From assembly GCF_000485595.1 (NCBI RefSeq), contig NW_014577729.1:44717-80895 (forward strand): DNA of 36,179 bases, in the 5' to 3' direction. The notes below the pieces were generated by a model that was not told the origin of the DNA, did no database searches, and saw nothing but the letters and a program-made list of their open reading frames with translations. The position numbers and the translations under genes are program-made. Positions 429 to 35,924 of this stretch are shown here, in pieces (positions within the stretch are counted from its first letter, which is position 1; each line of letters starts with the position of its first letter). Source of the stretch: Priapulus caudatus. Its lineage: Eukaryota; Priapulida; Priapulimorpha; Priapulimorphida; Priapulidae.

Positions 429-521
429 ACAATTTTAATTTAATTCAAAAAATCATAAAACAGATAAAATCGCGCGGGAGTTGACGCGGGCCGCCCGCAG
501 GTGGCGGCACCCTGCGCGCAC

Positions 522-6500: not shown

Positions 6501-9500
6501 CGTTGATTCATCGTTGTTGTTGCGGTGCTTAGTGTCATCTGTACACGTGCTGCGTGTGCACGTGACTAGCGGTGCGGTTGTGCGTGAGCATATTGCGACG
6601 GTACAGCGCTGTCGGTGCCGTGCGATAGGCATCGTCCACGTATTTTGCGTTGCGTTGTGCGCGTGGACACGTGCGGCGTGCGTGCATGTGTCAGCTGTAT
6701 CACCGCTGCGTGTGTGCGTTGCCGTTGTGTCACGTGTGTGTGTGCGTGCGTGTCCACTACCACGTGCGGGCGTGCCCCGTAGTGTGCACGTAAACACGTG
6801 CGTACGTGGCGTGTGCATGTACACGTGCTGCGTAATGCACGGTACACGTGACGTGCGTGCGTGTCGTGTGTGGACTTACGTGTGCACATACACGCCTGCG
6901 CTGCGTGTGCATTTACAGGTGCGTGTCGTACGTGGCACGTAACACTGTGTTCGTGGGTGCGTGTGCGGCGTGCTGTGTGCGACGTCACGTGCTGCGGGCG
7001 TAGCAGTGTGCATCGTCCTATCGTGCGCGTCGTGCGTTGCTTGCCGTGTGCACGTACACGTGCGCGCGTGTGCACGTACACGTGTGTGCGTGCGTGTGCA
7101 CGTACACGTGTGTGCGTGCGTGTGCACGTACACGTGCGCGTGCGTGTGCACTTTTATCACCTCTTTTGATCGCCACACACCATTTCAATCTCAGTTCTGG
7201 GTCACTTGGGCCCCCACTGTTTCGTGAACAGGCATGGTCCTTGCATTTCTTTTTGCTAGGATCTTTCTGTGCCCCTCGGAAGCATCATGCGCGTTAACAG
7301 TTTCCAAACGATAGTTTGTAGTGCCGGTGAAAAAACTACCAGACATACAGCCTGCACCACAGGTCATACCCTTGGCTGGGTCATACTCTAGCCACGGGTA
7401 TGACGATTTCCACGCTGGCTGGAACGCACGCATCTTTTTCGTCTTATCATAGACACGCTGGCCATCTATTTTCTCCTCCTGCGATTTACGTTTGGAAGGT
7501 GGAGGGCGAGCGCCGTCCAAATACTTCCACATAACAACCTTGATGTTAGTAGTTATACTATTGGATAATTATGTACCTACTATTAGCTTCACTACTATTT
7601 GTATCACTGCTTCAAGTAACACACGCATGCGATGTGGTTGCGATGTAAATACCTTGCTATGAGAGCGTACATAACTGATTAGTTGCGTTATTTCTACAAT
7701 CAGACCGTTTGTTCTATGTCAACAGCTGTCAAGCGATCGATCCATAGACTGGGTTCGTGGTCCCATTGTTTTTAACAATGTTTGTACTGCCGTAGTAGGG
7801 TCTAGCATGCTTAGAGGGGAAACTTGTTAATGGGACAAGTTATATATAGCTCTTTGGATCTTGGATGAGAGACGCTGCCGCCGGTAAAATCGATGGGAAA
7901 TTGGGACGGTGAGGGACGGGGAAATATAACTAGTCCCGCCGGACTAACTGCTATGGGAATCTACTAGTCCTTCTGATTTTTTACTAGTCTCGGACTAACG
8001 GACTAGCGTTAGTGTCGAACCCTGCAACACATGAGTCTAAATTTTCATAGCACACTTACTGAGAACCATTTCCTACTGAAATGTTCCTTAAATCAATAGA
8101 CAACATCACACAGCGTGTACAATCAAACCGGTACTACAGGAAATCTTCACAGAAGGGCCACTTGTCTATAAAGGACAATTTTGACATTACCCCCCCCCCT
8201 CCGAGTTTCAATTATAGAGTGAAACTGCCTCTATAGAATGGGAACATCTATAAAAGACATAAAGACATAAAAGATATCAAAGACATCTATAAAAGCTTTG
8301 GTATTTATTGTTGAGTGACCCACTATATACCGGTATGAATTTATACCTTGTAACTAACTCAATAAAATGTGCTTACCTCCTAGCAATCCCCCACCAGATG
8401 GCGTAGCTGGAAACACAATACATAAAAACAAAATTAGATCATAAAACTTGCTATCGGGACGTAGAGATTAAAGTAATTATTGCGAGAGTTTTCCAGTGTT
8501 TTCACCACTTTCATGACACCTACCGTTATTGCTTGAATAACAGCAATTGTCTAGAGTAACAATAAAATGTCTTAGAACCTTCGTATTTACCTAAAGCTGC
8601 CAGTTTCAAACTAATCGTTTTTGTAAACATTCGTTTTCTGTCATCTTTAACTAACAGGAAGTATGGATTAGCTTGTGGCGCCACCGCTTATCTGCCATAG
8701 ACACAGTACAGGCACGCACTTGTTTTCAATTCATCACCGACACAAATACAAGTTTACCAATTCTGCCATTAGGCATTATCGCGGCACGATACAATGCATT
8801 GCTGTTACGATGTGTTCATATCCAATTTTCTATGCTATAACTGCATAAAATCTTAGTATTTTTAATGTTGGTGTAATCAGTGATATTTTCGCTGTCAGGT
8901 GAGACTATATTCAGCTATATTTAGTTTTTCTGAGCAAAGATCTCGCAATACAGGCTTTAAGTAAGTAGATAATAGAGTATGAAACACGTAACGAGTATGG
9001 TAATTAATGAGTATGGTAATTGTAACAAAGTCTCCCATGACTCATGCATGCCCACCACTATCACACCAGTCTATTATTACCATAATGTGTAATCAGGGTG
9101 CAAAATTAACGCGAGTCCAGAGTCAATTTCAAATACTCCCTGATTTACTGTCGGACTCCCTGATTTGCAGGAGTCCGTGCGACTCCCTGAAAATTCTGCT
9201 ATACTAACTAGTTCGTTCCAGAGCACGGACTCGCGGAATTACCGTATTTTTTCAGCAAATCTTTAATTTTGAACTTCAGACTACGGACTCCCTCATTTTG
9301 CTGCAGACTCCCTCTTTTAGAGGGCTGGGAGCCCTCCCTTGTTCAAACGTTAATTTCTACCCCTGAATCACCATGCCAAAAACTCGGCAAAATAAAATGT
9401 CAAAAAAGAATTCCATACAAAAACTGAATCCGGTCGCGGGGGCAGCACCGCTGGCCGCCTGTCTGAACGAGAAGATGCTAGATGGCGCCGGTGCAGCAGC

Positions 9501-11427
9501 GCCGGCAGCCGGGGTCCCGAAACTGAAGCCGGTGGTTGCTGCTGGTGTCGGTGCCACAGTCTGACCCAGCATTCCTCCTGCATGGCACAAAGAAAGCTTT
9601 TATAAGAGCAACATCTACCAGCAAAAATACCTTCGATCGCACACCAAAGAAAAACCGTTCGACGACTCAATTATACACATGCACTCGGAATCACTTCGAC
9701 AAAATTGTTCGAGTATTTACTCGATGCGAACTGCACATTCGATGGTGGCATGCGTATTAAAATGAGATCACATGCACGATATAACTGAGAATTTTCTGCA
9801 ATCGGCAGAATTACCAAGTGATAATCCTGCCGTAGTGGTGGCGGAGGGTTGTTGGTTTCCAAATGAGAAACCTACAAGTGCAAAGTTCATTTAGATAGGT
9901 GGAGACATTGCAGAAATACGCAACACCATTCTCGAAGCGAGTTCAGATGCAGTTACAAACCCAAAACTTAAAACGTAATCCCATAAAATGTGATTACTGT
10001 GAAAGAAAATAGTGCAGTTTGGCGAGCAAGAAATGTACTTTTTAACCATCGTTAGAAAGTGCACGTCTATGTCTACACAATAGCTAGTGAGTTTGGAAAA
10101 GATACTTACGTCAATGCAAGCTAATATTTGTGAGTTTAAATTAGATATCGAGTTATAACTTATATATTCTACAAACCTGCTGCTGTAGTAGCGCTCATAG
10201 GGTCTATGTCCCCCAGGGTACTGCCGGAACGTACCCTGGGTACGGTCCGGTATACCGGAATGTACCCTGGTAACTATCTGATATGGTTAGGGTTAGGGTT
10301 AGGGTTAGGGAGTAGGCATAGGCGACTCCCTAGACTCGTTAGTGGAGTAGGCGAGGTACGGTCCGGCATATTAGATAGTGCCAGGGTACATTCCGGCAGT
10401 ACCCTGGGGGACATAGACCCTCTCAGCTGTAGTAGCAGCCGCCTGTGGAGTCCCAAATGAGAAAACTTGGAAGTGCAAGAAAATCATAAATAGTCATCAA
10501 TGGAAACTAAATACCTTACTAACAAGTAGTAGTAATGGCGGTAGTAATACCAGTGAACAAAATTAACGTAAGTTACACTGCAGAGTGCTACACACTTCTT
10601 ATAGTGTCATGTATCTGCAAGTCGATATTTATTTTCTGTATACCTGGTGCTGTGCTGCCACCTATCTGTGGGGTTGAGAAGGAGAATCCTGAAAATAAAC
10701 AGAATTTTTCAAAATTCAAATAAAATGCACCATAATACGTAGCAATTCTTTGACAACACATCCGGATATTTGTGCGACAATCCTACTACATGTTGTGTAT
10801 TAAACTTTTACATTTTTCGTTAAAAGAGGGGCAGTGACGGTTTTAGAGCGAGAGAGCGTTAGGGATACTGTTACTTTCTATTATATAATTTTTTATCTAC
10901 GTTCGATTCGACATAATCGTTATTTGTGTCACGTGTGCGAGCGGAGCATCGAGACGTCGAGAGACGTCATCGCAAAAATCCAGACGCATAACCCTAAGCC
11001 TAGGCCCCTATGGTCTTTCGCTACCCCTTCAGGATTCACCCTTCAAAATAATGTTTTCTGCATCATTGTATTTTTTTGCAAATTATGGTGATAAATAAAT
11101 TATTTGAATTGAATTTGAATTGAATAACGATATTCTGCTGGCTGCTTGATAATGCGTATCTACTTGTGGTCGAGGAAACACCTCGTGGTAATAACTCGTG
11201 ATTTGTTAGACATTAGCGGTTTGTTACTGACCAGTAGCAGGTGTGCTTGCTGCGGCACTGGCGCCAAACGTAAAACCAGGATTGCTCGTTGATGACAATG
11301 ATGTAGCGTCTTGTGCTGGTGGCAGTGCCAGTGGTGCAGCCGCTGCCGGCTGGCCGAACGAAAAGCCAGTAGCCTGACCGGTACCGCCACCAAATGTGAA
11401 ACCACTGGGTTGATTTGTGCCAGACAT
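522..11427 (-). CDS. NUP62: Nucleoporin p62 (FG-repeat nuclear pore protein), 3' partial
   Basis: Central-channel nucleoporin: N-terminal FG repeats bind transport receptors and the C-terminal coiled coil assembles with Nup54 and Nup58. Exons read on the minus strand: 11427-11232, 10688-10644, 10465-10177 (split by a mobile element), 9871-9815, 9577-9419, 8406-8377, 4752-4708, 4461-4018, 3628-3275, 2936-2798, 2366-2207, 710 to about 522-526. Phases agree at every junction. Exons 1-10 are Gly/Ala/Thr/Ser-rich with motifs GFTFG, GFSFG, GFSFGN, TFSFG and AFGLG. Exons 11-12 match the conserved coiled coil (MNYRQLEEAINKW, ATQVNAWDR, ENGEK, VKLDQQRLDHELDF, QQRLD, QHADLERE). The last helix lies beyond the left edge. 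Start ATG at 11427 opens MSGTNQPSGFTFG. Without the insertion about 620 codons are visible, longer than the human protein, mainly through alanine/glycine-rich exons 8-9. The exon-12 donor is ambiguous between 526 and 522. Confidence 0.93.
852..1001 (-). repeat. Two extra copies of the NUP62 exon-12 acceptor edge
   Basis: The first 29 coding bases of the exon at 710-682 plus adjoining intron recur at 881-852 and 999-971. All three encode ITALNSDVERV after a CAG acceptor (ccgcag, ccgcag, ccacag), with mostly silent differences. The downstream intron block (TTTTAAACTAGTACG, ACGACAAAGGA) is repeated too, and weaker copies of that block continue to about 1490. The copy at 881-846 reads ITALNSDVERVK and then AAG|gtg, so it could serve as a 36-nt in-frame mini-exon. 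Confidence 0.85.
1010..2206. other. NUP62 intron between exons 11 and 12, no further gene seen
   Basis: AT-rich sequence. The part to about 1490 carries degraded repeats of the block seen beside exon 12 (AACGGCTATTGTAACAATAA, GAGGAAAAAACAAAAAC). From 1500 to 2200 only short open frames without recognisable similarity occur. Confidence 0.6.
2367..2797. other. NUP62 intron 10, short direct repeats
   Basis: Mostly featureless AT-rich DNA. A block of the type ATCTATCAATTTCGTT...GAATTTTGCGTT occurs twice, near 2478-2508 and 2561-2600. I see no gene. Confidence 0.5.
3812..3955. mobile_element. Small MITE with GGGCTGTAACGAT termini and TA flanks
   Basis: Left end GGGCTGTAACGATAC, right end GATCGTTACAGCCC, each flanked by TA, which fits a Tc1/mariner-type TA target duplication. 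The interior is built from TCGATTCGAT-like repeats in both orientations, so the single strand can fold. It lies in the NUP62 intron between exons 8 and 9. An alternative reading is a hAT-type MITE with AGGGCTG ends, but no 8-bp duplication is visible. Confidence 0.75.
4194..4440 (-). repeat. 45-bp coding minisatellite in NUP62 exon 8
   Basis: About five and a half tandem units of 45 bp encode 15-residue repeats of the type GGFALGGATTA(M/T)PTA. The period is a multiple of three, so copy-number change keeps the frame. In some units the phenylalanine is replaced (GGLAIGG, GGLALGG), so expansion dilutes true FG motifs. Confidence 0.92.
5107..5395 (-). pseudogene. hAT transposase-like fragment, frameshifted
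   Basis: From 5395 down, the frame reads RNAHAIGKNGRPYTELLVKL then CQLDKAKG. A frameshift follows, and another frame continues with TYLTTSLQRFITAIADTRRR and AKFLSVISDGSTDFSS before a TAG stop. The GRP(Y/F)T, LCQLD..KG and DGSTD blocks are typical of the ZNF862/KIAA1586-like branch of hAT-derived proteins; DGSTD holds the first acidic residue of the RNase H-like fold. The remainder of the catalytic domain is absent, so no active enzyme is encoded. Confidence 0.8.
5396..6540. other. Interior of the hAT element, no gene assigned
   Basis: GC-richer than the surrounding intron. Open frames exist on both strands (for example 5440-5784 and 6123-6350 on minus, 5645-5875 on plus) but none has a recognisable domain or splice-supported continuation. 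It could be an intron of the transposase gene or a nested insertion. Confidence 0.4.
6540..7150. repeat. Alternating purine-pyrimidine tract rich in CACGTG
   Basis: About 600 bp dominated by TG/CG/CA steps, with CACGTG and GTGCACGTACACGTG repeated many times. At 7050-7150 it becomes a clean tandem array of a roughly 30-bp unit (TGTGCGTGCGTGTGCACGTA). All six frames stay open here because the sequence is low complexity, so the open frames are not taken as genes. Confidence 0.85.
7191..7532 (-). pseudogene. TTF-type zinc-finger N-terminal part of a hAT-derived protein
   Basis: Open frame of 113 residues starting MWKYLDGARPPPSKRK. It contains AFQPAWKSSYPWLEYDP, CGAGC, GTTNYRLETVNAHDASEGH. The W..F.P.W...YPWL spacing, the paired Cys and the terminal NF/Y-R....H....H arrangement match the TTF-type zinc finger at the N-terminus of ZNF862/KIAA1586-like proteins and related hAT transposases. 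It ends about 40 codons after the finger and is separated from its catalytic continuation by about 1.8 kb, so it is treated as part of a broken element. Confidence 0.78.
8025..8376. other. NUP62 intron flank with a GTCTATAAAGGACAA repeat
   Basis: Contains CTTGTCTATAAAGGACAA near 8160, a C-run, and CCTCTATAGAATGGGAAC. The same wording appears near 32690-32785, so both are probably remnants of one DNA-transposon family. No gene is seen. Confidence 0.5.
8407..9093. other. NUP62 intron 5 (3' part), nothing recognised
   Basis: AT-rich, no open frame with similarity, no splice-bounded FG-type exon found. Ends where the hAT-type MITE begins. Confidence 0.5.
9094..9365. mobile_element. hAT-type MITE
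   Basis: Left end CAGGGTGCAAAATTAACG, right end CGTTAATTTCTACCCCTG, an imperfect inverted pair starting with the CAGGG typical of hAT elements. The interior contains repeated GGACTCCCTGATTT-like words in both orientations. Only AAT is shared by the immediate flanks, so no clear 8-bp duplication is seen. It sits in the NUP62 intron between exons 5 and 6. Confidence 0.75.
10193..10427. mobile_element. Telomere-repeat foldback element A, inside NUP62 exon 3
   Basis: A 235-bp element bounded by inverted ends: left GCTCATAGGGTCTATGTCCC, right the complement of GCTGAGAGGGTCTATGTCCC, continuing perfectly to CAGTACCCTGG on both sides. It is flanked by the 9-bp direct repeat TGTAGTAGC at 10184-10192 and 10428-10436. 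The loop holds four TTAGGG units (about 10286-10310). It interrupts a NUP62 exon whose two halves read FSFGTPQAAATTA and TTAA. Removing the element and one 9-mer leaves a 45-nt exon with intact 1-1 phase. In place, it brings a stop codon and a frame change. Confidence 0.9.
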
Positions 11428-11766
11428 TGCGACTATATAAAGAGTTCACTGTTTGCTATGCTGTTTGTTAACTTAGAATTTCACATGAACGTAAACGAAT
11501 TACTCAGTTTGATATTGGCGCAGGAGATCTCCACGATTTGCGACACGATATCGCAATGCGAGTTTAAAACGAAGTTTGTAAATAAATTAGATAGTACGTG
11601 TATAACAACTAAATGTTACTCAAAGTGAAAGTGATGTAATATTGGTTTTTAAACACGTCAGTAAGTAAAAATACGGTAATAATAGTAAATCAGCAAACGA
11701 TTTACGTTACAACTTTCCGCTCCTACCGCACTCTGTCGGTGACCGGAGAGACTAACCGAAATTGCC
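11428..11766. promoter_or_regulatory. Divergent promoter region NUP62 / MRPS21
   Basis: Only 339 bp separate the two start codons, and the genes point away from each other. The interval therefore must contain both 5' UTRs and the core promoters. A TATATAAAG lies 6 bp from the NUP62 start codon, too close to be its TATA box. No other motif is called with confidence. Confidence 0.75.
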
Positions 11767-12343
11767 ATGGCTGCAAAAGCTCACTTACAGTTTGTTTCAA
11801 AGACTGTTTTAGTACGAAATGGTGACATAGAAGAGGCCATGAGATCACTGAACAGGTACTAGACAAAGCTCATCGATCAATCATTGATAATACTGTGCTG
11901 TATGATGTATCATGTACTCAGTATATACGGTCAATAATTTCCTCTTTCTCCACTCTCTTTGGGGACGTATCTAGTCTAGTGCTAAACTATACCAACCATG
12001 CATAGCTATGCTAGCTGCATATTAGCTTTGCATAGCATGCCATACTAGTTTATGGCTAACCATGGGGACTGCTGTTTTGCCTGGCTTTGGTGCAAGTTTT
12101 AATTGCGCGTTGCTACGTCACATCGCGATCACTGACACTGGTGTTTGTACATGATCGTGTTTCAGGGTGATGGGGTCCGAAGGGCTGCTGGATATCATCA
12201 GGAGAAATCGATACTACGAAAAGCCGTGGCAGGAGCGAAAGCGGGTCGCCTATGAGAAGTGCAAGGCCATCTACAATTCCGAAATGCAGCGCAAAGTCGC
12301 CTTCGTCATGCGAAAGCATCGGACTAACCCGTGGCCAAACTGA
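11767..12343 (+). CDS. MRPS21: Mitochondrial small-subunit ribosomal protein bS21m
   Basis: Component of the mitochondrial 28S subunit, homologue of bacterial S21. Two coding exons: 11767-11855 and 12166-12343, joined through AG|G with a GTACTA donor and a TTTCAG acceptor. The product is 88 aa, close to the human protein. Recognisable blocks are LQFVSKTVLVRNGDIEEAM, the LNR motif at the exon junction, GLLDIIRRNRYYEKPWQERK, AYEKCKAIYNSEM and a basic end MRKHRTNPWP. These match the family across their length, with YYEKP, the ER/K-rich helix and the RK.R..PW ending all present. No separate presequence is visible, as is usual for this protein. Confidence 0.96.
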
Positions 12344-12710
12344 CGATCGCGATTGCAGTATTGGCAGTGACACATCCTAGCAAAGCACACGAAACCTAGT
12401 GAGCGCAGATGTACATTAGGTCGGCATTATCACAGACAGTTCACATGAAGATGTATCTACTGTAAGACCACTCCTGGAATAACATGTGCTGCCACTGCCA
12501 CTCACCCACATGACATTGTTATTTCATTGCATTGCAGTTCTGAAGTTCTCTAACCTGTACACACTTCTTGGATCAGTGTAGAACTGATACATAACAGCTT
12601 CAATACTTGGAACCCTTGGCAAGTGTCAACAGGCTAGTCTAAAACCGTATAGTGTGTCAAGTGTGCTGTAGGCTGTGGCGTGAAAATTATAGTTTGTAGT
12701 GCTCAATGAC

Positions 12711-12716
12711 AATAAA
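12711..12716 (+). terminator. Polyadenylation signal, MRPS21
   Basis: AATAAA about 370 bp after the MRPS21 stop codon, in the sequence GACAATAAAATAC, followed by AT-rich DNA. It is the first canonical signal I find downstream. Confidence 0.55.
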
Positions 12717-12719
12717 ATA

Positions 12720-13262
12720 CATTCATATTTCATATTACATTTGCGATTGATTTACGGCATACGCATTACAAAAAGACACATACAAATATAATTAGTCAAA
12801 AACGTGTAATAATTTATATACAACAGAGCAGTCATACAGCAACTGGCACCAGTTTTAATTATATTGGACAAATTACATGAAATTTTGCACCACATTTGAT
12901 ATTTACTGCAAGTCTATGAAAATTTATTAACCGCTTGCTCGCCTCGAACACATCAGATCAAAATCGACATTCATCCACTCGCTGGTAATTAAACTGGATC
13001 CCGTGATTGTATATTAAATATTGATTCACTGACCGCACAACCCCATTACTATTAGTCTGCGCACGTTGACGCCAAGGATTTCCCACGATAGATGGAGTGG
13101 AAATCTGTGTGCGGCATACGCGCGGTTAAGAGTTAATAATACCTCTATGTTATTAGCATATTAGATATTATTAGTACTTGGCAAAGTCGATACGATTGTC
13201 GAAACAGATTCTCTGTGCCCTCGGACCCTCCCCGCCACCTCCGGCCGTCCACGCGCGCTCGC
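12720..13262. other. Convergent intergenic region MRPS21 / DPM1
   Basis: AT-rich, no open frame with similarity, no tRNA-like structure found. It lies between the 3' ends of the two genes. Confidence 0.5.
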
Positions 13263-13263
13263 G

Positions 13264-13938
13264 CTACGTGGTGGCAAACGGCTGCAGTACAGGCCCTTCA
13301 TGTAGGCGAAGATCTCTCTTCCTCCATCCTCGGACTAGGCTTAGATACAAATATCCGGATATTTTTGAAGATATTTAGAAGTTTTCGGAATATTTAGAAA
13401 ATTCCTTAATATTTAGAAGATAAAACAACAAAGATTTGTAAGGATGAGTCCTTTTCTGTTAAGAAAAACCATCCAGTGGTGCAAACTGCATGCAGTGCCC
13501 CTTCGTACACTCAGGATACCACTGCCACAATGCTAGCACTATTTTTAAAGTGGGCGGAGCTCTGGGGAAATCCAGCGAATGGAAAATCGTAAACAGCGTA
13601 TGATTTTTTCGCACACAATAAATATGTTTAAAAGACATTACGTTGAAATAACTGAGATATTTAGAAAAAATTTGGGGATATTTAGACATTTTTTGGAGAT
13701 ATTTAGAGATTTTTTTGGAGAATTTCCGGAAACATATTTAGGCCATTTTTCGAGATATTTGTATCTAAGCCTACCTCGGACCCTCCTCCACCCCCTGCCA
13801 CCCCCGTGCACTTGCTCGCTCTCGCTACATGGTGGCAAACAGCTGCAGCAGGCCCTTCACGTAGGTAACAATCTCTCTTCCTCCGTCCTCGGACCCTCCT
13901 CCACCCCCTGCCACCCCGCGTGCACTCGCTCACTCTCG
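13264..13938 (-). repeat. Two extra copies of the DPM1 3' coding end
   Basis: The terminal DPM1 coding segment, stop codon and about 50 bp of following sequence recur at about 13264-13335 and 13825-13938. The copy ending at 13825 still reads [15 protein letters not shown] then TAG. The copy at 13264 has a 2-base insertion that breaks the frame. Discounting a later 446-bp mobile-element insertion (438 bp plus 8-bp duplication), all three copies are spaced by 114-115 bp. Confidence 0.85.
13336..13773. mobile_element. Foldback MITE with 8-bp target duplication
   Basis: Ends TAGGCTTAGATACAAATATC and its complement (GATATTTGTATCTAAGCCTA), with further inverted matches inward (TTCCGGAA, GATATTTAGA words). 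The 8-bp repeat CCTCGGAC flanks it at 13328-13335 and 13774-13781. An 8-bp duplication fits the hAT superfamily. It inserted into a tandem copy of the DPM1 3' end, so it is younger than that duplication. Confidence 0.85.
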
Positions 13939-18397
<4,459 letters not shown>

Positions 18398-21300
18398 ATG
18401 GTATGTATAGTACGCACGCATGTACATAGTTATGGCCATGATCCACGTCACAACCGTTACTATAGTCTCTGTCCGTAAGTTAATTATTCTTGTTAAATTA
18501 AGTCTAAGTTGTGTCGTTGTAAATAATTAATCTTCTTCTTCTTCTTCTCGGGTCACTACACTAGGCCTACACTCGGCCCAGCCACTGCAGCACACAGGAC
18601 TTGGCACGGTGGTTGAAAGCCTCAAGGTTTCCAGGGCTACATGGCTCTGGCAATAGGGGGCATTTCAGGAGATGTCCCATAGTCTGGTCCTCCCCGCAGT
18701 CGCATTCGATTGGGCCATCTTCAGCTTGAGCCCCAATTCAATTTCAAATTCAATTTGCCCCATTTCTGCATGAGTGCCCGGTGCAAATCCACTTTAGGCA
18801 CCTTAGGTATCACGAAGTGATGCACAGATTTCTGTGTATCATCAACTGATGCACAGAATTTCCGTATATCAAGGAATGATGCAAAAACCCTAACCCTAAC
18901 CCTAACCCTACCCTAACCCTAAGCCCAACCCTAACCCTAACCCTAACACACTTCGTGATACCTAAGGAGTAAGGTTATACTTTATGACTTAGGGTTAGGG
19001 TTAGGGTTAGGGTTTTTGCATCATTCCTTGATATACGGAAAGTCTGTGCATCAGTTGATGATACACAGAAATCTGTGCATCACTTCGTGATACATAAGGT
19101 GCCTAAAGTGGATTTGCGCCTGAGTGCCCTACATCGACCAAACCCTGTCCTGAGGCGAGTTAGGCATAACCACGTCGGCCATACCTCGTTGGCTCCGGGT
19201 GGGAGGGATTCCTGGGGTCTGAGTGAAAGCTTATATGTTGGCTTGCCTGAAGATGCTTTGACCATTGGGCGATCCTGTAGTTTTGGAGGTTGCCATCCAG
19301 GGGTTGAACCGCGTGGATGAAACTGTGCCTGGACTTTAGTCTCTTCTTTACTGTTTCATGCTGGAAGAGGGGGTGGCGAGGGTCATTTTCTTGGTTAAGT
19401 TTCTCTACTTGGGATGAAGCCATTCGTCTAACGTGCGGAGGAGCGATGCCACAGAGCAGGTAGAGGTCATCTACGTTGGTTGGTCTTAAGCATCTAGAAA
19501 TGGCTCTGCAGGTAATGTTCAGAACTGGGTCCATTTTTGCAGCATGGGGCGACCTACTCCAGACAGGGCACGCATACTCAGCCGCAGAGTAGCACAGGGC
19601 GATAGCAGTGGTTCTGATTGTCTCGGCGTCTGTTCCCCATTTAGTATTTGCCAACTTCTTTAGAATACTGTTTCTGGCACCCACTTTGGTCTTTGTCTTG
19701 ATGATGTAATTCTTATAAGTTAGAGAGCGGTCGAAAGTAACACCTAGGTAGACTGGGCTATAGGTATGTTTCAGCCATTTGTCATACCATTTGTCTTTCA
19801 GTTGGCGGTTCGCCTGCTTGTTCTTTAGATGGAAGGCACTTATTTGAGTTTTCCCGGGATTGGCTCGTAGATTTTTTGCTGTGTAGTAGGTGGTTAGGCC
19901 TGCGAGAGCATCGGTGATGGACCGTTCGGCTTCGCCAAAGGACTGATTTTGTGAAGCAATGCAGAGGTCATCTGCATAAAGGAAACTCCTGGTGTTTGTG
20001 TGTACTGGCTGGTCATTTGTGTATAGATTAAAGAGCAGAGGGGCCAGGACGCTTCCTTGTGGGAGGCCATTTTTCTGTCTACGCCATCTGCTGCGGTTAC
20101 CATTGAGATCCACGAAAAACCGCCTATTTGCCAGCATATGTTCCTGATTAGTTCTGCTAGTCTCACATCCTTTACTAGCTGGTATAATTAATAATAGTAA
20201 TATCAGGAGTAGATAATAGAGACATATCTAGAGACATCTAGATCTAGAGACTAGTCTAGAGACATCGTCTAGAGACAGATCTAGAGACATCTCTATTATC
20301 TACTCCTGATAATATACTACTACTAGTACTAGTACTACTAGTTACTAATAATACTACTGCTAATGCTAGTCGTATTTTTTGCACTTGTTGCTCAGCATGG
20401 CCGGTTAAAAGTACGTACAACCGCGGAACAGCAGGAAATAAAGCGCAAGGAACGTGCAGAAAAGGTGAAGAAGTTCCAGGCTGGATTACACAGGGTTTTC
20501 CAAAAGGTGTGCTCACTTATTATTATTATAACACTTGCTCAGCTCCACTCAGAAGTCCATTTTTCTCAGAAGGCTATTGCCATGGGGTGTCGTCCGTCGT
20601 ACGTCCGTCCGTCTGTCCGTTCGTCCGTCCGTCCGTCCGTCAACATTTGGCTACGGTCAACGATAACTCAAGAACCGTTTGACTCACATGTTTCAAATTG
20701 CATGCAGTTGTTACTCCTATGGGAGAGGTTTGAACGTCCTATTTTGGAGCACGCCAGTCGACCTACTTTCGAGCCACGTCCACTTTTTGGCAAAAATGGA
20801 AATGGCCATAAGTCAATTCAGGTTCAATGGATTTCGCTCATTTCTAGTATGTGAATGAATAAGGACTGGCCCCAAAACATATCACAAGTGTTTTGATTTT
20901 TTTTTAATTATGCAAATTAGGTAGATTTTGGCAATTTCATTATGCATTTCAGTGTCTGGCTACGGTCAACGATAACTCAAGAACCGTTTGACCCACATGT
21001 TTCAAATTGAATACAGTTGTTACTCCTATGGGAGAGATTTGAACTTCCTATTTTGGAGCACGCCAGTCGACCTACTTTTGAGCCACACCCACTTTTTGGC
21101 AAAAATGAAAATGGCCATCTAAATTCATTCTATTTTGTTAAATTTTGGTATATGTGAATGTGTAAGGCTAGCCCCAAAGCAGTTGTTACTCCTATGGGAG
21201 AGATGACAACGTCCTATTACGTTTATTTCGTCTAACTGGTCAACAACTCTACAATCATACCTATATACGTGTAATATTGTGTTTTAGATTCTTCGTTACA

Positions 21301-24300
21301 GTAATTTGACTGGAATATATTTTATTGTTTTTAATTGCGCGATATTCGAAAACCAAAATGGCCATCATTTAGGCGTAGCGCCATCTCTCGTCAAGATTTC
21401 AGACTCAGATCTGAAACATTTATTTTCGCATCAAAACTTATGCATATATCATTATCAAGAGTATATAATTGGAGATATGCTATATAATGGGAATTCTCCC
21501 ATATATACTCTTGCTTTATATATCCCCCCCTCCCTCTTCTATCACTCCCAAGGTGAGCTACAGTGTCATTGATACTTTCATTATATTTTAGTAGGTCTCA
21601 GGGGAGAGATAGTGAATATAGAAATAAGTTGTGGATATAGAAATCAGTTAACCCTAACCCTAACCCTAATCCTAACCCTAACCCTAACCCTAACCCTATC
21701 CCTAATTCTAAATTTAAAAAAAAATAGCCAAAAATAATAAACAATAAAATAAATAAAAGTAAAAATTAGCCAATCAGAGCCGTTTTTATTGGCGCTTAAC
21801 GCGCTCTCTAGCGGATCACTATCTCTCCCCTGTGCAAAATTTATTATATTTAGCATGTATGACTCGTGCATATATATGGTAGATCTGTACGGCAGGGATT
21901 TACACTGTCTTATTTAAACATCGGAATCCAATGACGTTGTTATAGCCAGATCAATGTCGATACATGTCGATGCCTTGGAGCGTCTTTAGAGCGACCCTGA
22001 TGGTTTTTTCTCTGCATGTTTCCGGCAGCGCGATGCGGGAGAGTTGGACGCAGAGGCCTTGCAGATAACCGCCCAGCTGCTTGCAGGCAACCCAGATGTG
22101 TCGACGCTGTGGAACTATCGCAGAGCGGTGCTGCAACACTACATCGATACGAAGTGAGTCCCCATGGAATATGCCTCTCAAGAGGTTGTTCCTGGGGAGA
22201 GATCCGGATCCTGATCGGAATCGAATTCGTGCATAGATTCGTATTTTGTAATCGTGTTTCGTCACAGAACTGAGCCGGACAACATTTGTATGGTTTCTCC
22301 CCAATATCACTTACTATCAAGTAGCCATAAAACTGCGTGCTTCCTGCTGGCTCATTGCTTACTTTGACAAGTAGAGCTTACTATGTAGGTCACACATATG
22401 TGGTTTCTCTCTCCCTTTCTCTCTTTCTCATCCCTCCCTCCCTCCCTCTCTCTCCCTCTCTACTTCCCTCCCTCCCTCCCTCCATCCCTCTCCCTCTCTC
22501 CCTCTCTCCCTTTCTCCCTTCGCCATCCCTCTCTCCCTTCCTCCCCGTCCCTCTCTCCCATTTCCCTCCCTCCCTCCTCTCCCTCTCTGTCTTTCTCTCA
22601 CATTCTCTTTCTCTTGCTTCCTCTCTGAAGTATTTTCTCATTATTTCCTTCTACACAAGTGCCAAAATTCGCACGTTTCGCACCTACCCCTCATATGATT
22701 CGCCTCCTCTCTCATACACCCATCCCCGTAACACGATCCACATCTGTTCGTTCTCTCGCCGCGTCGCTCATCTTCTCCCTCCTCATCATCATCGTAGGAG
22801 CGAGGATGAAGTTCAGGCGGCGTGCGTGGAGGAACTCGACTTTCTCGAGTCGTGCCTGCGCGTCAACCCCAAGTCATACGGCGTGTGGCACCATCGCGCA
22901 TGGACGCTGTCCGGCGCGCCGCGGCCTGACTGGACGCGCGAGCTTCAGCTCTGCGACAAGTTCCTCGAGTACGACGAGAGAAACTGTGAGTGCTTCCTCT
23001 GACGACGAGAGAGTTTTCAGAAGAAAAAAAAGAGACAGAGTTTTCTGACCCTTGCGGTGTTGCACTTCGTTAGCCTTCTGGTCACGCGGGCCTTCGTTAG
23101 TCCTACGGTCGCTAGAGATTGTACTTTATATTTTTTAGATTGTATTTTTCTATCACAAATCCCCTGTGAAGTTCCACTACTTTGTACTATAATATAATAA
23201 TTTTTTCTGAACCATCGTAATGCTTTCTAAATCGCCGTCATACTTTCTGAACCATCATACTGCTTTCTGTACTATCGTAACGCTTTCTGCGCTTTCCTAA
23301 TTCTTGCTGTCCTATCGTAATGCTGTCTGTTCCATCGTAAAGCATCCTGTAGCTTTGAGTGTTTATAAGAGCGTGAACTTCAAGGGCATAGCCAGGAATT
23401 TGGATTGGGGGGTCCTCAAGCGAGTAAAAAAAAAATTTGGGAGTTAAATGTAAAAATAGTGCTTTAAAATTAATTTAGACACTGTTTTGTTGACAATACT
23501 ATTTCTTCTGCAGATCTTTTTTTTTATTTTTGAATTTTTGAATTTTGTTTGAATTTTGTTTTGGATTTTGATTTTGATTGGGGGGGTCGGTCCTAGGGCC
23601 CCCAGGACCCCCCCTGGCTACGCGCTTGGTGAACTTGCTGATCCTGCTCTTACTCTCATGCTGCAGTCCACTGCTGGGACCACCGCAGGTTTGTCGTGAA
23701 GTGCTCCGGAGTATCCGCGGAGGCGGAACTCGAATTCACGGACACTAAGATCAGCACAAACTTCTCCAACTACTCATCTTGGTATTACAGGTAATGCACA
23801 GCTCCTACTTCTACGTCTGCTTCTTCACCTTCCTACTTCTGCCTCTTTGCCCTTCTACTTCGACTTCTTCACCCGTTTACTTCACATTAAAGTGATTACG
23901 TCACTGGAAATAATAAAATTAAAAAAAATATTTCCACTTTTTCGCAAAATGTAAGTAATTCTGTTCACTTTTTATGGTTAAATTGCTGCAATATACTTCC
24001 TATTTTACTATATTGTTCGATGAAAACATACACTCGTGACTCATACATAGCCAATAGCAAGCAATTAATGTTAGGATAATAATATCAAATCGTCCAGGTT
24101 TTTTGGATTTTTAGCTAGTTGAGAAACAATCTTATCAGGTAAGGATTTGACGATACATCTAGTTCCGTTAGTACTTTACCTTTAATGTAAAGCAATGGCA
24201 ATTTTTTTTTACAAATATACACCATAAAAAATTTGTGACGTAGTCAATTTAACGGTGCTTTCTTCTGTTGGCTTCCAGGAGCAAGTTGCTTCCCATCGTT

Positions 24301-27300
24301 CATCCGGCAACGGATGGGAGCGGGAGGGTGGCAGAGGCTGAGCTACTGAAAGGTAATGCTGGTCAGATGCAGCGTATTAGCCAGCGAGCCATGCAGCCGT
24401 GATTTGCACAGTCAGTTTTGAAACTGCACGGCCTAAAATGTGTAGCACGGCCTAAAATATTGATCTAAAGCCGTGTACATTTGTAAAATTGCACTCCGAA
24501 ATATTTTTTCTGCACTCCCACAATACTCATTCCTGGCTAATACCCTGGTCAGATGCTGCGACACTAGAATAACGAACTAGATTAATCAAATACCAAAGAC
24601 GAGGTAAACTAGCTCGTGTTTAATTTCAAATTTGTGATGGAAACAATGCGAGATTCGTTTGCAAATCATTGAAATTTGCAAGAAGTTGAAAATCGCGAAT
24701 GATGACTTCGTATTTTTATATAATAGATTATATTACGGCCTAACGAAAATTCGTTCTATATAAAATGGTGTATGGCATAAAATAGTATAACTTTACTATG
24801 GGGGTTTTACCAGACGTTTATTTCATGAATTGCAGAGTTTCAGCTGGTACAGAATGCTTTCTTCACGGATCCGAATGACCAGAGCGCTTGGTTCTACCAT
24901 CGCTGGTTGCTAGGAAAAGGTAAGATCCGATTACATTCCTGCTGATGCTAATGCATGACTGAATGATGCAAGGCTAATCACATTGTTGTTTCTGTCACCA
25001 AGACAGTAATTTCTTTGTTTACTGAATTGGGGATAAATTGGGTTGTTGTTCTTCTGGCGTTGTAGCGAGTGGGTTTTTTGCTGCGAAAAATGCTGGCTGA
25101 CTTTTAATTCTGGATGTTAAAGTGATTACGTCACCGTAAATAATATAAAAAAAATATATATTTCCAGTTTTTCACAAAATACAAGTAATTCTGTTTACTG
25201 TTTATGGTTAAATTGCTGCATTATACTTCCTGTTTTACTATATTGTTCGATGTGAACATACACTCGTGACTCATACATAGCCAATAGCAAGCAATTAATG
25301 TCGGGAACATAATATCAAATCGTCCAGGTTTTTTGGATTTTTAACTAGTTGAGAAACAATCTTATCAGGTAAGAATTTGACGATACATTTAGTTCTTACT
25401 TTTAATGTAAAAAAATGGCAACAAACATTTTACAAATTTTACCATCGAAAATTCGTGACGTAGCCAATTTAAATGTTTGCAGGTGAGCAGAGGCTAGCGT
25501 TGGATTGCATACATATCAGCAGAGACCCATGCCGTGCGAGTGTCAGACTCACTAAACCAGTGAAGGTAGGTCGAAATAAATATTCCAAATCGTAGAAGCT
25601 AGATCGAAATAAATGTACTAAATCATTGAAGATTGTATATATACTATTTACTAAACCTGTGAAGGTAGGTCGAAGTAAAAGTGTTAAAACGTAGAAGCTA
25701 GATCGAAATAAATGTACTAAATCGTTGAAGGTTGTATATATATACTATTTACTAAACCGTGAAGGTAGGTCGAAGTAAAAGTGTTAAAACGTAGAAGCTA
25801 GATCGAAATAAATGTACTAAATCGTTGAAGGTTGTATATACTATTTAGTAAACCCGTGAAGGTAGGTCGAAATAAAAGTGTTAAACTGTTGATGGTAGAT
25901 CGAAATAAATATGCTAAACCAGCGAAGGTAGGTCAAAATACACAAAGCATTGAAGGTAGATCGAAACAAATTTGGTAAACCAGTGACGGAAGATCGAAAT
26001 ACATATGCTAAAGCATTGAAGGTTGGTCGAAATAAATTTGGTAAAATTTCACCCATTCACAGCACATGCAGTCTTTAACCGATCTTCCTCTGCATATTAC
26101 TCCAGTCATGACTGTGGCAATTTCACCGGGACTGTATATATACGGGCGGCACTTGGGTTTCACGACCTTGTTTTTTTACAGGGCCACGACCACAGATGCA
26201 CGTTGAAGGTTGGTCGAAATAAACGTACTATGTAAATAAATCTTTTACAGTTGGGCCACGACCACGTCAGCTTGAGTATTTCTGTTGACGGCAAGCCGGT
26301 TGAGGACTGCCGCTGGAAAAACGCGACGCGGGGCAGCGACTACGGAATGCTCTGGGTATCCTTTTGTTTATGGAGCAACCAGGGTAGAAAATACACGGGA
26401 GCGATGAGCGATTCGCTATTCAAACTTCCGAAATCGCTCCCGTGAGTCTCAAAATAGCTCCCGTAAAATTTTTGACGAGAGCTATTTTTCCCACATACTT
26501 GAAAAAGAGCTCCCATGAAAAAAAGTCATTTTTTCCCTGGCAGCAACAGTGTATTATCTTCCTCGCAGCTTCTCAATTTCTCATCTGGCGCCAGCGGAGA
26601 GCTAATTTCTTTATTTTTTTATCAATCATGGTGCAAATTTTTGTTTAATGTGCGTAATTTGTCGGCGAATGTACGGTCTGCGTTACTCAGTCCTTTCATC
26701 ACGGGGAACCTTTAGAAAACTTCCTGGAAAAAACCCTGAGAAATAAAAAGAAAATCCGGAAATTCCGCTGAGGAAAAAGTGCTCTCGTCTCGCGGGAGCC
26801 ACGCCCTAACGACGTACCACCTTAACGACGTGCGCGTGCCAGACGTACGATGTTCCGCGCGGGACCCTCACAGAGCGAGGCGAGCATGTGATCACGGCGG
26901 AGCTGTCGAGCGGCGATAACGACGACGACGACAAGAGGCTGTCCTTGAGCTGCACGCTGCCGGCCGACCGCGGCGAGTGCAAGATGGCGATGCGGACGTC
27001 GTTCTGCAGGTACTCCTTAGAAAGAATAGAAAATTTATCAAAAAAGGAAAAGAAAAATAGAATAAAATACGATAGATCGGAAAAGAATACTGCAGGTATT
27101 CTTCACAGGTCGCATACGTGGTTGCAGAGTTTACCGTAAAAATACCTTAAATTTCGGTTGAATTCGCGCGCGAGACCATCTTTTTCTCTAAGTAAAGTGT
27201 AATTTTATAATTTACAATGCCTAATTTTTGACTCGCCTTGCCACGACAGAAGCATTGCATAAGCAATGTAAGTTCCGTATCAATCGTAAACCAGTAGCAC

Positions 27301-29632
27301 TATACAATACTATACTATACAATACTATACTACCCAACCTCAGCCTCACAAATACCCCTAAATTTTGCGTGAATTCGCACGCTAAACCGCAGGCGTTTGT
27401 GTCGGCGATAATTAGCGATCCTCGTTCGTCCGCTGCTCGGCAGATCTCGGATGACGGCGGCGAAGACGGAGACGCTCACCGACGAGCTGGAGTCGTGCAA
27501 GCAGCTCGACGAACTCGAACCGAACAACAAGTGTACGTCTTCATCGCCGCGGCGACGGCGGCAGCTGCGGCCGTCAACGTTCCGCTCATATACGTTTATT
27601 ATGGACATACATGATCTTGCGGTTTCAATTTCGGTTTGCGGCCCGTAACATTTCGATTCGGTTTCGATCCGTCGTCTCGTTCGTGAGGAACGTTCCGCAA
27701 TAAACAACAACAAGTGTACGTCTTTATCCTGACGTCCCAGCGTGTCACACCGTTCATTCGACCGGTGGCCGCCTTAATTGGAACAATTACGTCATCGTTA
27801 ATCTAAATCGTCTTTAACGGTCAAAATTGGTTAAAAAAAAATTTTACGCAAATTTGTGTGTCGTGTGACATTTTTCGACCCCGCGACAGCGTGATCGCTC
27901 GCGTTGATTCGGTTCACGGCCCGTAACATTTCGATTTGGCTTCGATCCGTCGTCGCGTTCTCAAGGAACGTTGACTGATGTTGACGAGCGACGGAGGTAC
28001 GTGGAGACAGCGCGAGACGCCGTCACGAGGGGATGCCTGCTGTCGTTTCAGGGGCCCTGCTGACGATTGTTCTCTTGATGAGGGCACTGGACCCACTGGG
28101 ACGCGAGGCGGAGACGCTGGACTACCTGTCGCAGCTCAGCGAGGTCGACCCCTACCGCGGAAACTACTACCGCGATCTCGGTACGCGAACTTGGTTCCTC
28201 CCCCTCTCCCTCACTCCACGCCTCCCTCCCTCAGCGCAATAATCCCTCCTTCTACGCAATCCGTCCCTCCCTCCCTTCCTCCTGCTGAACTACCTGTCGC
28301 AGCTCGGCGAGGTCGACCCCTACCGCGGAAACTACTACCGCGATCTCGGTACGCGAACTTGGTTCCTCCCCGTCTCCCTCACTCCACGCCTCCCTCCCTC
28401 AGCGCAATCCCTCCCTCCCTCCCTCTACGCGATCCGTCCCTCCCTTCCTTCCTCCTGCTGGACTACCTGTCGCGGCTCGGCGAGGTCGACCCCTACTGCG
28501 GAAGCTACTACCGCGATCTCGGTACGCGAACTTTGTTCCTCCCTCTCTCCCTCACTCCACGCCTCCCTCCTTCCACGCGATCCCTCCCTCACTTTGCGTG
28601 CTCCTTCCCTCCCTCCATCCCTTTTTTACTCCGTCCCTCCTCCCTCCCTCCGCTCAACTCATATACAGTAACTAGCTGCATAGTTGGGAAGTTAGGGTCT
28701 CGTTTGCTGGTTATTCTTCGAGGATTACTTGAAGCCATCTGCTGGCAACCGAGGGTAGTCACTGCCAGAGTGTTTTACATCCTATGTGGTTCTTTTACAT
28801 TCCCATCATGGTGTATACTGTTCACAGGGAGCAAGTTCATCATGGAGAATGTTCTGGAGCAGCAGCAGCATTTAGAGGACAAGGTCGCGTTGAAGGACAA
28901 AGGCTTAACGGCACTGTACTACACTGAATACCTAGCCACAGTGTCAGAGGTGAGGCAACATGAACTGTGGTCAGAGATACGACTTATTATCTTACTAAAT
29001 CAAAGGCGTTGTTTATTATCAGCTATTGTTGTTTATGTTTAGGTATTGTGTAGCACTCTAGACAGTTAATTACAACTCGTATTGCAGTTAAATCTCGCTT
29101 CGAACAAGCTGACAAATGTCAGCCAGTGCTGCCATCTACAGTGCGTTACCAAGCTTATACTGGATGACAACGAGTTGGAGAGCTGTGTCGGGCTGGGGCA
29201 GCTGCCGTTGTTAGTGGAGCTCTCACTGCAGAACAACAGTATCCTTTACCCATGCAAAGAATCTGTCTGCATCAGCTCGTTCCACGATCCCACATACACC
29301 ATAACACGAATTTCAAAACGTTAAATAAACCCAGCTCATATATAGATCTGTGAAGTTTGCAAAAAGAAATAACATAAAGGAAAACAATTGATAATTTCGC
29401 GTAAAGAAATGGCAGTCTGTTTTGTTTCGAGAAGGGACAGACACATAATGACATTATAAGTATCCTTGACGATCTCACAGAGTTGTCCACCGTCGATGCG
29501 GTGGCGCCACTGTCCACGTGTCCTCGGTTGGAGAGGCTGGATCTTCGCGGGAACCCGATGGCGAGCGATTGTGCCGTCGTCGAGAGCGTGCGAGCCGCAC
29601 TTCCACAAGTTAGAGAGCTGCTGCTAGTGTGA
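18398..29632 (+). CDS. RABGGTA: Rab geranylgeranyltransferase alpha subunit
   Basis: Alpha subunit of Rab GGTase II, which with RABGGTB and REP geranylgeranylates Rab C-termini. Fifteen coding exons: 18398-18400 (ATG only), 20396-20506, 22029-22153, 22798-22985, 23667-23790, 24279-24352, 24836-24919, 25483-25565, 26251-26355, 26843-27009, 27444-27532, 28052-28180, 28828-28949, 29088-29238, 29481-29632. Phases close exactly, giving 568 aa (human 567). The start is MHGRLKV, with exon 1 ending ATG|GTATGT. Prenyltransferase alpha repeats are clear: [63 protein letters not shown]. An Ig-like insert follows (exons 8-10), then [24 protein letters not shown] and C-terminal LRRs ([33 protein letters not shown]). 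Introns after exons 9 and 14 are U12 type. Confidence 0.97.
18533..20175 (-). pseudogene. 5'-truncated non-LTR retrotransposon (reverse transcriptase)
   Basis: In RABGGTA intron 1, antisense to the gene. A 325-residue frame (20137-19160) has the RT palm motifs [20 protein letters not shown] and [11 protein letters not shown], then [34 protein letters not shown] and LLCGIAPP. The frame shifts near 19250 to [11 protein letters not shown] and [14 protein letters not shown], then after the insert at 18780-19120 continues MQKWG and [16 protein letters not shown], the terminal Cys/His motif, with a premature stop before it. The 3' tail is (GAA)n at about 18533-18550. The endonuclease and N-terminal RT are missing, and another frameshift lies near 20140. 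It belongs to the jockey/I-like broad group; I do not assign a clade. Confidence 0.9.
18780..19120. mobile_element. Telomere-repeat foldback element B, inside the LINE
   Basis: A 341-bp element with long inverted arms (about 105-110 bp): GGTGCAAATCCACTTTAGGC, ATCACGAAGTGATGCACAGA, TATCAAGGAATGATGCAAAA and their complements. The left arm leads into about 60 bp of CCCTAA repeats (18887-18947), and the right arm is preceded by TTAGGG repeats (about 18988-19013). The 9-bp direct repeat TGAGTGCCC flanks it at 18771-18779 and 19121-19129. Removing the element and one copy restores the LINE frame [11 protein letters not shown]. Confidence 0.93.
20201..20311. repeat. Small foldback with CTAGAGAC repeats
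   Basis: TATCAGGAGTAGATAATAGA at the left pairs perfectly with TCTATTATCTACTCCTGATA at the right. The loop consists of (T)CTAGAGAC repeats. It lies between the LINE and RABGGTA exon 2, whose acceptor is 85 bp downstream. No target duplication was identified. Confidence 0.8.
20575..21235. repeat. Tandem dispersed repeat with (CGTC)n lead
   Basis: GTCCGTCC microsatellite (about 20590-20640) followed by a roughly 230-bp block starting GGCTACGGTCAACGATAACT and containing GAGCACGCCAGTCGACCTAC. The block recurs in the same orientation about 304 bp later. A third short piece (CAGTTGTTACTCCTATGGGA) appears near 21179. It lies in RABGGTA intron 2. Confidence 0.88.
21453..21514. repeat. Imperfect palindrome related to the one at 34416
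   Basis: ATCAAGAGTATATAATTGGA at the left resembles ATCAAGAGTACATAATAGGA at 34416, and the right half ends ATATACTCTTG. The centre is GGGAATTCTCCC. It is probably a diverged copy of the same small foldback. Confidence 0.55.
21589..21842. mobile_element. Telomere-repeat foldback element D
   Basis: Inverted ends CAGGGGAGAGATAGTGA (from 21599) and TCACTATCTCTCCCCTG (to 21833) enclose about nine CCCTAA-type units (21650-21706) followed by an A-rich segment. The 9-mer ATTATATTT lies on both sides (21580-21588 and 21843-21851), which would make the element slightly larger than the clear inverted repeat. Because that 9-mer is AT-rich it could be chance. The CAGGGG ends would also suit a hAT-type MITE. 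It lies in RABGGTA intron 2. Confidence 0.72.
22400..22630. repeat. CT-rich polypyrimidine microsatellite
   Basis: Long CCCT/CTCT tract in RABGGTA intron 3, with open frames on both strands that are purely low complexity. No gene is assigned. Confidence 0.92.
23200..23350. repeat. Degenerate tandem repeat, 21-23 bp unit
   Basis: About seven diverged units of the type CTTTCTGAACCATCGTAATG in RABGGTA intron 4. Confidence 0.65.
23887..24252. mobile_element. Copy 2 of the TTAA-ended MITE
   Basis: Begins TTAAAGTGATTACGTCAC and ends GTGACGTAGTCAATTTAA. Inside the TTAA ends, the inverted termini A(G/T)TGA(T/C)TACGTCAC match at 12 of 14 positions. TTAA at both ends fits a piggyBac-type TTAA target duplication. 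The right end is 26 bp upstream of RABGGTA exon 6. It is highly similar over its full length to 25117-25472. Confidence 0.85.
25117..25472. mobile_element. Copy 3 of the TTAA-ended MITE
   Basis: Begins TTAAAGTGATTACGTCAC, ends GTGACGTAGCCAATTTAA. Its end lies only 10 bp before RABGGTA exon 8 (TTAAATGTTTGCAG then exon), so the branch point and much of the acceptor environment of intron 7 must come from the MITE itself. Confidence 0.87.
25551..26235 (+). repeat. Minisatellite grown from the RABGGTA exon-8 donor and exon-9 acceptor
   Basis: The exon-8 end ACTAAACCAGTGAAG|GTAGGTCGAAA is repeated with drift at about 25652, 25751, 25849 and 25916, and weakly to 26040, mixed with related units GAAGCTAGATCGAAATAAA. 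Several copies keep an intact GTGAAG|GTAGGT donor. At 26166-26190 TTTTTTACAGGGCCACGACC is a copy of the real exon-9 acceptor (CTTTTACAGTTGGGCCACGA at 26242), and the same GGTTGGTCGAAATAAA unit lies between them. Almost all of intron 8 is therefore made of these units. Confidence 0.85.
26356..26842 (+). other. U12-type intron (RABGGTA intron 9)
   Basis: The donor GTATCCTTTT right after CTCTGG equals the U12 5' splice-site consensus. Upstream of the acceptor GCCAG, ACCTTAAC (26819-26826) fits the U12 branch consensus TTCCTTAAC, with the branch A about 17 nt from the splice site, and there is no polypyrimidine tract. The exon join keeps the frame (GMLW|TYDVPRG). Confidence 0.85.
26450..26800. 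other. Body of RABGGTA intron 9, nothing recognised
   Basis: Repeated AGCTCCCGT/GAGCTATTTTTC words but no gene or clear element. Confidence 0.45.
27638..27970. repeat. Direct repeats and a second exon-11 donor edge in RABGGTA intron 11
   Basis: CGGCCCGTAACATTTCGATT with following TTCGATCCGTCGTC recurs at about 27640 and 27919. AACAACAAGTGTACGTCTT, the exon-11 end plus donor (27525 onwards), recurs at about 27706. Confidence 0.75.
28117..28640 (+). repeat. Triplicated donor edge of RABGGTA exon 12
   Basis: The last 64 coding bases of exon 12 (28117-28180, [20 protein letters not shown]) with the GTACGCGAACTT donor and a following CT-rich intron block recur at 28285-28348 and 28458-28521, spaced 168 and 173 bp. 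Both extra copies keep their GT donor and are preceded by CT-rich tracts and TGTCG(C)AG-like sequence. Confidence 0.92.
29239..29480 (+). other. U12-type intron (RABGGTA intron 14)
   Basis: Donor GTATCCTTT after CAGAACAACA. ATCCTTGAC at 29462-29470 fits the U12 branch consensus, with the branch A 11 nt before the CACAG acceptor. Only this acceptor gives the correct frame into the last exon ([10 protein letters not shown]); an AG closer to the branch would shift it. Confidence 0.9.
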
Positions 29633-35554: not shown

Positions 35555-35850
35555 CTGCGGGGAAACAATGGTGAATGTAAGCAAACACGCACGCACGCAC
35601 ACGCACGCACGTATGCTTGGTGTTGCGCGGCGGCTGCCTCAGCACGTCGTGGTCCACCGGCTCGACGCCGAGGCTGCGGGGAAACAACAATGAATGTAAG
35701 CAAACATGCACACACACGCACGCGCATGCACGCACGCACACGCACGCACACGCACGCACGTATGCTTGGTGTTGCGCGGCGGCTGCCTCAGTACGTCGTG
35801 ATCCACCGGCTCCACGCCGAGGCTGCGGGGAAACAACGGTGAATGTAAGC
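35496..35850 (-). repeat. Triplicated acceptor edge of the ATP2C1 exon
   Basis: The first part of the exon at 35554 with its CCCCGCAG acceptor recurs with acceptors after 35673 and 35822, spaced 119 and 149 bp. Both extra copies encode [20 protein letters not shown] and then H-T before a GTGCGTGCG donor-like sequence. Each is 63 nt, so each could be a frame-keeping mini-exon. (GCAC)n microsatellites separate the copies. Confidence 0.92.
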
Positions 35851-35924
35851 AAACACGCACGCACACGCACACGCACGCACACGCACGCACACGCACGCAC
35901 GCACGCACGCACAGAGGAGAGCTG

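Follow-up and report, generated by a model that had tools for sequence, protein, structure and literature searches.

Four short transposon-like elements carrying telomeric tracts between 9-bp direct repeats in a contig of Priapulus caudatus

The stretch of DNA analyzed here (the window) comprises 36,179 bp of animal-type DNA from contig NW_014577729.1 of the priapulid Priapulus caudatus. It holds four short elements, designated E1 to E4 in order of position, in which inverted repeats and telomeric tracts, read as TTAGGG or as CCCTAA, are enclosed by a direct repeat of 9 bp. Together, the four elements make up 1,257 bp (3.5%) of the window. Their parts, including the terminal inverted repeats (TIRs) of E2, are as follows.

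10184..10192, left duplication of E1, TGTAGTAGC, an exact match to 10428-10436
10193..10427, E1, foldback element of 235 bp with inverted ends of about 47-54 bp
10285..10310, plus strand, telomeric tract of E1, TTAGGG, 26 bp exact, in the loop and immediately inward of the left arm
10428..10436, right duplication of E1, TGTAGTAGC, exact 9 bp
17356..17364, left duplication of E2, AAATGATGA, exact 9 bp
17365..17791, E2, composite foldback of 427 bp, outer ends 10/15
17365..17529, plus strand, left unit of E2 (TIR, CCCTAA tract, spacer, inverted TIR)
17426..17446, minus strand, left tract of E2, CCCTAA orientation, 21 bp exact
17559..17729, minus strand, right unit of E2, an inverted copy of the left unit with a tract one hexamer longer
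17642..17668, plus strand, right tract of E2, TTAGGG orientation, 27 bp with one variant hexamer
17792..17800, right duplication of E2, AAATGATGA, exact 9 bp
18771..18779, left duplication of E3, TGAGTGCCC, exact 9 bp, with the empty site in a retrotransposon open reading frame
18780..19120, E3, foldback of 341 bp with arms of 131 bp, 98% complementary, containing 29-30-bp tandem units
18886..18947, minus strand, left tract of E3, CCCTAA orientation, 62 bp imperfect
18949..18967, inner piece of E3 between the tracts, an inverted 19 bp of its own arm (18801-18819)
18989..19014, plus strand, right tract of E3, TTAGGG orientation, 26 bp exact
19121..19129, right duplication of E3, TGAGTGCCC, exact 9 bp
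21580..21588, left direct repeat of E4, ATTATATTT, exact 9 bp
21589..21842, E4, element of 254 bp with a 17-bp subterminal inverted repeat (21599-21615/21816-21832)
21649..21713, minus strand, tract of E4, CCCTAA orientation, about 65 bp, with a degenerate inner edge
21843..21851, right direct repeat of E4, ATTATATTT, exact 9 bp

The whole window was scanned, ignoring telomeric sequence, for an exact 9-bp direct repeat with copies 100-700 bp apart that encloses inverted sequences, starting 0-15 bp inside it and matching at 15 or more of 17 positions. Two-letter shuffles in 200-bp blocks (n = 40) served as the null, and two-letter words were kept. This unbiased scan returned four loci, namely, E1, a unit within E2, E3, and E4, and none in each of the 40 shuffles. 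At E2, it caught an internal 9-mer pair (17391/17511) and not the outer AAATGATGA pair. TTAGGG tracts were present in 4/4 of these loci, in agreement with the initial annotation, which had placed a telomere tract in all four elements. The outer pair of E2 was recovered by a looser scan (a 9-mer plus at least 10/15 inverted matches, tandem arrays masked), which gave five matches, three of them in the E2 locus and one each at E1 and E3; in 60 shuffles, the mean was 0.08 and the maximum 1. A third scan (a 9-mer, ends of at least 13/20, up to 2,500 bp) gave seven matches with a shuffle mean of 0.17, these being E1, E3, one within E2, and, in a tandem repeat at about 4.2-4.4 kb, the remaining four. 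The looser and third scans dropped two-letter words, so that E4 was invisible to them.

Exact telomeric runs were confined to the elements. All nine exact telomeric runs of at least 11 bp in the window lie within E1-E4, and no such run was found in the whole window outside them. The tracts measure from about 3.5 to 11 units, which falls in the range of short interstitial telomeric sequences, described in human as 2-25 TTAGGG copies (PMC6410037), and the window around them bears genes. For comparison, 17 viral loci and 106 contig stretches, by their titles prokaryotic or viral, were analyzed with a pattern of three exact units, which missed E2. Among the 129 tract clusters in these 123 loci and the window, three were E1, E3, and E4 (the last found by its inverted repeat alone and not by the combination of target site duplication and TIR); the other 126 showed no such combination (0/126), and no exact inverted repeats 14 bp or longer surrounded any of them. 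This control is weak, as its records are non-animal and just 87/129 clusters lie at least 300 bp from a record end. Within the window, the association between telomeric tracts and elements is nonrandom.

E3 is a genuine insertion into the open reading frame (ORF) of a non-LTR (long terminal repeat) retrotransposon, which is located as follows.

19160-20227, minus strand, reverse transcriptase ORF of a non-LTR retrotransposon (Pfam RVT_1, E = 1.2e-13, plus homologs)

The best named homolog of this reverse transcriptase, among the best 120 of 1,444 to which all homolog counts refer, is from Branchiostoma belcheri (63%), and E3 sits in the C-terminal continuation of the ORF. After removal in silico of E3 and one copy of the 9-mer, one frame reads a 20-residue conserved motif over the junction. 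These 20 residues matched at least 10/20 positions without gaps in 36/120 homologs, with a best value of 16/20, and 29 of those 36 also retained at least 3/6 residues past the junction. Junction-spanning alignments were obtained for 80/120 homologs; the ones displayed run in the neighbouring frame and are gapped there. Since the joined flanks restore a conserved motif, E3 is a true insertion, and with this empty site, added to flanking repeats that are exact at 4/4 elements, the earlier description of the four as insertions with 9-bp duplications is borne out. The ORF shifts frame again a few residues beyond the junction and, therefore, would not be intact even without E3. The ends of E3 adjoining the duplication match at 19/20 inverted positions, and its fold is far below that of shuffles (z = -33.7).

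E2 consists of two TIR-tract-TIR units joined as an inverted dimer. Its strong arms (17362-17529/17559-17732) comprise 104 and 85 bp that are 98% and 95% complementary, and its fold z was -37.7 versus shuffles. Each half also forms a small foldback of its own, whose loop holds the tract (17382-17430/17472-17520, 88%; 17568-17616/17664-17712, 92%), and the halves differ by few substitutions and one tract hexamer. The near-perfect arms stop at 17729-17732, about 60 bp before the right duplication. Likewise, the 62- and 26-bp tracts of E3, with an inverted piece of its arm between them, make it resemble a partial dimer, and E3 looks like a partial inverted dimer built on the same TIR-tract-TIR plan. 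In both E2 and E3, CCCTAA precedes TTAGGG, and E1 and E4 carry a single orientation. A head-to-head telomere fusion would give TTAGGG and then CCCTAA; because the order in E2 and E3 is the opposite, as already remarked in the initial annotation, fusion was rejected. The inverted dimer of a one-tract unit, therefore, yields the order seen in E2 without any fusion of telomeres.

In E1, the ends adjoining the duplication match at 18/20 inverted positions, the arms include 31 bp that are exact (10199-10229/10391-10421), and the fold z was -12.7 versus shuffles. E4 is the weakest of the four and is likely, but not certain, to be a real element. Its inverted repeat is perfect (17/17), but it begins 10 bp inside each duplication; the chance of such flanks was estimated at about 3e-4 with a symmetric offset of up to 12 and at 4e-3 with free offsets. 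The foldback architecture proposed at the outset thus stands for E1-E3, which have long arms (z from -12.7 to -37.7), and is weak in E4, whose fold is barely below that of shuffles (z = -2.4) and whose inverted repeat spans 17 bp. The inverted ends proposed with it directly adjoin the duplication in E1 and E3; they do not in E4, and at the outer ends of E2 the match is reduced to 10/15. Since the inverted repeat of E4 begins CAGGGG, a hAT origin was considered for it and rejected, as no 8-bp repeat lies beside the 17-bp inverted repeat. More generally, hAT duplications are 8 bp in length, and hAT was rejected for E1-E4 because theirs are of 9 bp.

Comparison of each element with the window by blastn gave matches between elements only at the tracts, and the arms are mutually unrelated, consistent with the initial view of a common plan without shared arm sequence. 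Four exact arm patterns had no match each in viral contigs, and E3 had no match when searched against phages; the viral search has little bearing on an animal genome.

Two further protein-coding features were identified in the window.

453-740, minus strand, Nsp1_C domain (Pfam), presumably of Nup62
16951-17340, minus strand, glycosyltransferase-2 exon (Pfam), which we take to be DPM1

In addition, an ORF at 7191-7568 on the minus strand has a weak match to zf-C17orf113 (E = 1.3e-4) that falls under the Pfam cutoff. An inverted repeat of 35 bp (89%) with tandem units lies at 20198-20314, where the retrotransposon ORF has its upstream end. Several repeats occupy the right part of the window: 2.9 copies of a 173-bp unit at 28116-28616, which resembles a duplicated exon with its intron and which may belong to RABGGTA; a 20-bp satellite in 36 copies at 34667-35389, with the consensus ATTAACTATCTAGTGACATC and numerous near-palindromic units; and about two copies of 119-149-bp units at 35495-35912, in each of which CACG repeats accompany an exon-like stretch.

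As for the class of transposon, long inverted repeats capable of forming hairpins are found in 3/4 elements (E1, 54 bp; E2, 104 and 85 bp; E3, 131 bp). Composite arms with tandem units are clear in E3 (2.2-2.6 copies in both arms), partial in E4 (19 bp in two copies, left side only), weak in E2 (a 20-bp period with 64% matches at 17701-17758, right end only), and reduced in E1 to a single piece that recurs within the left arm. Sizes of 235-427 bp, inverted ends, duplications, and a length too short for a transposase fit the traits of miniature inverted-repeat transposable elements (MITEs), the ends of E2 and E4 being weaker. The Mutator superfamily, whose members are known as Mutator-like elements (MULEs), is reported to generate duplications of 8-11 bp (PMC6446971), and Table 1 of that source assigns 9 bp to Rehavkus and to many of the MULE groups. 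E1-E4 fit this range with 9 bp at 4/4 loci, and an empty site is available for 1/4. Because they share the 9-bp duplication and the plan only, with no arm sequence in common, a shared superfamily is suggested; their membership in the Mutator type is putative, and their amplification as MITEs hypothetical.

The closest described systems are similar in several of these features. Tm1, a Mutator/Foldback family of Meloidogyne, likewise has duplications that are mostly of 9 bp within a range of 8-10 bp. Its TIRs are composite and contain tandem units, its termini include non-inverted bases, some members are MITE-like, and it shares the possible acquisition of host sequence; the likeness is one of described features, and the term "telomer" does not appear in the main text (PMC3169594). 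Similarly, the MULE families of Aedes aegypti, including Muta1, have 8-9-bp duplications, mostly long TIRs, subterminal tandem repeats, and numerous short derivatives; their tandem units are 9-15 bp, and "telomer" and "microsatellite" are absent from the main text, which names Muta1 a type 2 Foldback element with more than 300 putative nonautonomous derivatives (PMC5225508). MITEs that carry or yield tandem repeats, such as (GTCY)n in Lepidoptera and Xstir and miDNA4 in Xenopus, are likewise short nonautonomous DNA transposons that spread a simple repeat; the repeat there is apparently not TTAGGG, and the comparison concerns repeat spread (PMC9659126). Short interstitial telomeric sequences are likewise short, near-exact TTAGGG arrays inside chromosomes (PMC2246262, PMC6410037). 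Those of primates and rodents go straight into repaired breaks (PMC2246262), whereas the tracts of E1-E4 lie inside transposon-like elements; transposition of mobile elements has been put forward in a review as a possible mechanism for heterochromatic interstitial telomeric sequences (PMC6410037). Penelope-like telomere-associated retroelements are also mobile elements with telomeric hexamers, but they are retroelements whose 3' end bears one to three hexamers (PMC4522978), in contrast to tracts placed between inverted ends. In the literature search, which left most subscription journals outside, no title or abstract opening among the matches listed dealt with foldback or Mutator-type elements that contain telomeric tracts; a paper on coral MITEs likewise showed no telomeric term (PMC2872659).

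Overall, E1-E4 are probably short nonautonomous transposons of the Foldback/Mutator style with telomeric passenger tracts, obtained by loop capture and inverted duplication. A transposase supplied in trans would cut the inverted ends of all four, and insertion would occur at 9-bp staggered sites, which the empty site documents for E3 and which we presume for E1, E2, and E4. The telomeric tract, placed between the arms or at their inner edge, would travel as a passenger. Breaks may recur in the hairpin loop, and their repair by telomerase or with telomeric DNA would add a tract that could then be copied along with the element. In E2, and partly in E3, a simpler TIR-tract-TIR unit may have undergone inverted duplication, and the copies would have gained or lost hexamers relative to one another. 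Interstitial telomeric repeats would be seeded as a result. The insertion of telomeric repeats during break repair has been described in primates and rodents (PMC2246262).

Several observations weigh against this interpretation. The sample consists of four elements in one window, and none of them showed a second copy or an empty allele within this single window. The unrelated arms exclude one family, and no transposase domain appeared among the Pfam matches of the 16/77 window ORFs scanned. The outermost 10 bp at either end of E4 are non-inverted, and its duplication is made of A and T only. At E3, the uninterrupted sequence scored equal to the joined one for 24/120 homologs, which I take to match poorly at the site. 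That the tracts originated in break repair is something we infer. Finally, three TIR elements in the window are without a telomeric tract.

13336-13773, 8-bp duplication CCTCGGAC, ends 20/20, adjoining a 114-bp tandem repeat
23381-23628, 8-bp duplication GTGAACTT, ends 14/20
24370-24547, 8-bp duplication GTCAGATG, ends 15/20; alternatively, a 10-bp repeat GGTCAGATGC with ends 14/20

As 8-10 bp is within the Mutator range, the tract would not be universal if any of these were of the Mutator type. The second and third begin with CA and hold a TAGCCAGG-like motif, and their starts may be hAT-like.

Transposases of the Merlin type also generate duplications of about 9 bp, and E1-E4 might be foldbacks of this or another such class that carry telomeric tracts in the same way. 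The Mutator assignment rests on duplication length and architecture, and foldback elements bear different transposase classes according to the Tm1 paper (PMC3169594). Nevertheless, Mutator-type elements are known to have composite TIRs with tandem units as well as non-inverted bases at their termini, and we consider a different transposase unlikely. Slightly less likely still, the tracts could be microsatellites of the ordinary kind that expanded in hairpin-prone elements, with nothing special linking the telomere motif to such elements. Their short length (21-65 bp), the difference of one whole unit between the E2 tracts, as from slippage, and the three elements lacking a tract would agree with this. 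However, exact microsatellite runs of at least 20 bp comprised seven telomeric ones, inside the elements, versus four non-telomeric loci outside, and the same hexamer is not expected by chance in four unrelated sets of arms. Lastly, it is very improbable that break repair or fusion first introduced the telomeric repeats, with inverted arms and short direct repeats as repair scars: break repair in primates and rodents does insert telomeric repeats, at times with target site duplications (PMC2246262), but the tract order in E2 and E3 is the reverse of that from fusion, in E3 the tracts are set 106 bp in from near-perfect inverted ends at a clean empty site, and the direct repeat is 9 bp at 4/4 loci.

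Returning to nonautonomous transposons with passenger tracts, a systematic, genome-wide class of tract-carrying foldbacks is plausible. A broader proposal, which we regard as tentative and rather doubtful, is that in this lineage telomeric repeats are recurrently acquired or selected in foldbacks. Unrelated arms would then converge on the TIR-telomere-TIR plan, either by telomerase extension of loops or excision intermediates or through a benefit of the tract (telomere-binding proteins, G-quadruplex), and such elements would be a main source of interstitial telomeric repeats.

Interstitial TTAGGG tracts are usually attributed to fusions or break repair. The elements described here suggest that telomere repeats can also be scattered inside chromosomes by such elements. 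If foldbacks carry TTAGGG as cargo, these tracts may spread by transposition, which would alter their reading as scars of fusion, and tracts in foldbacks would offer a natural test of telomerase action at hairpin breaks.

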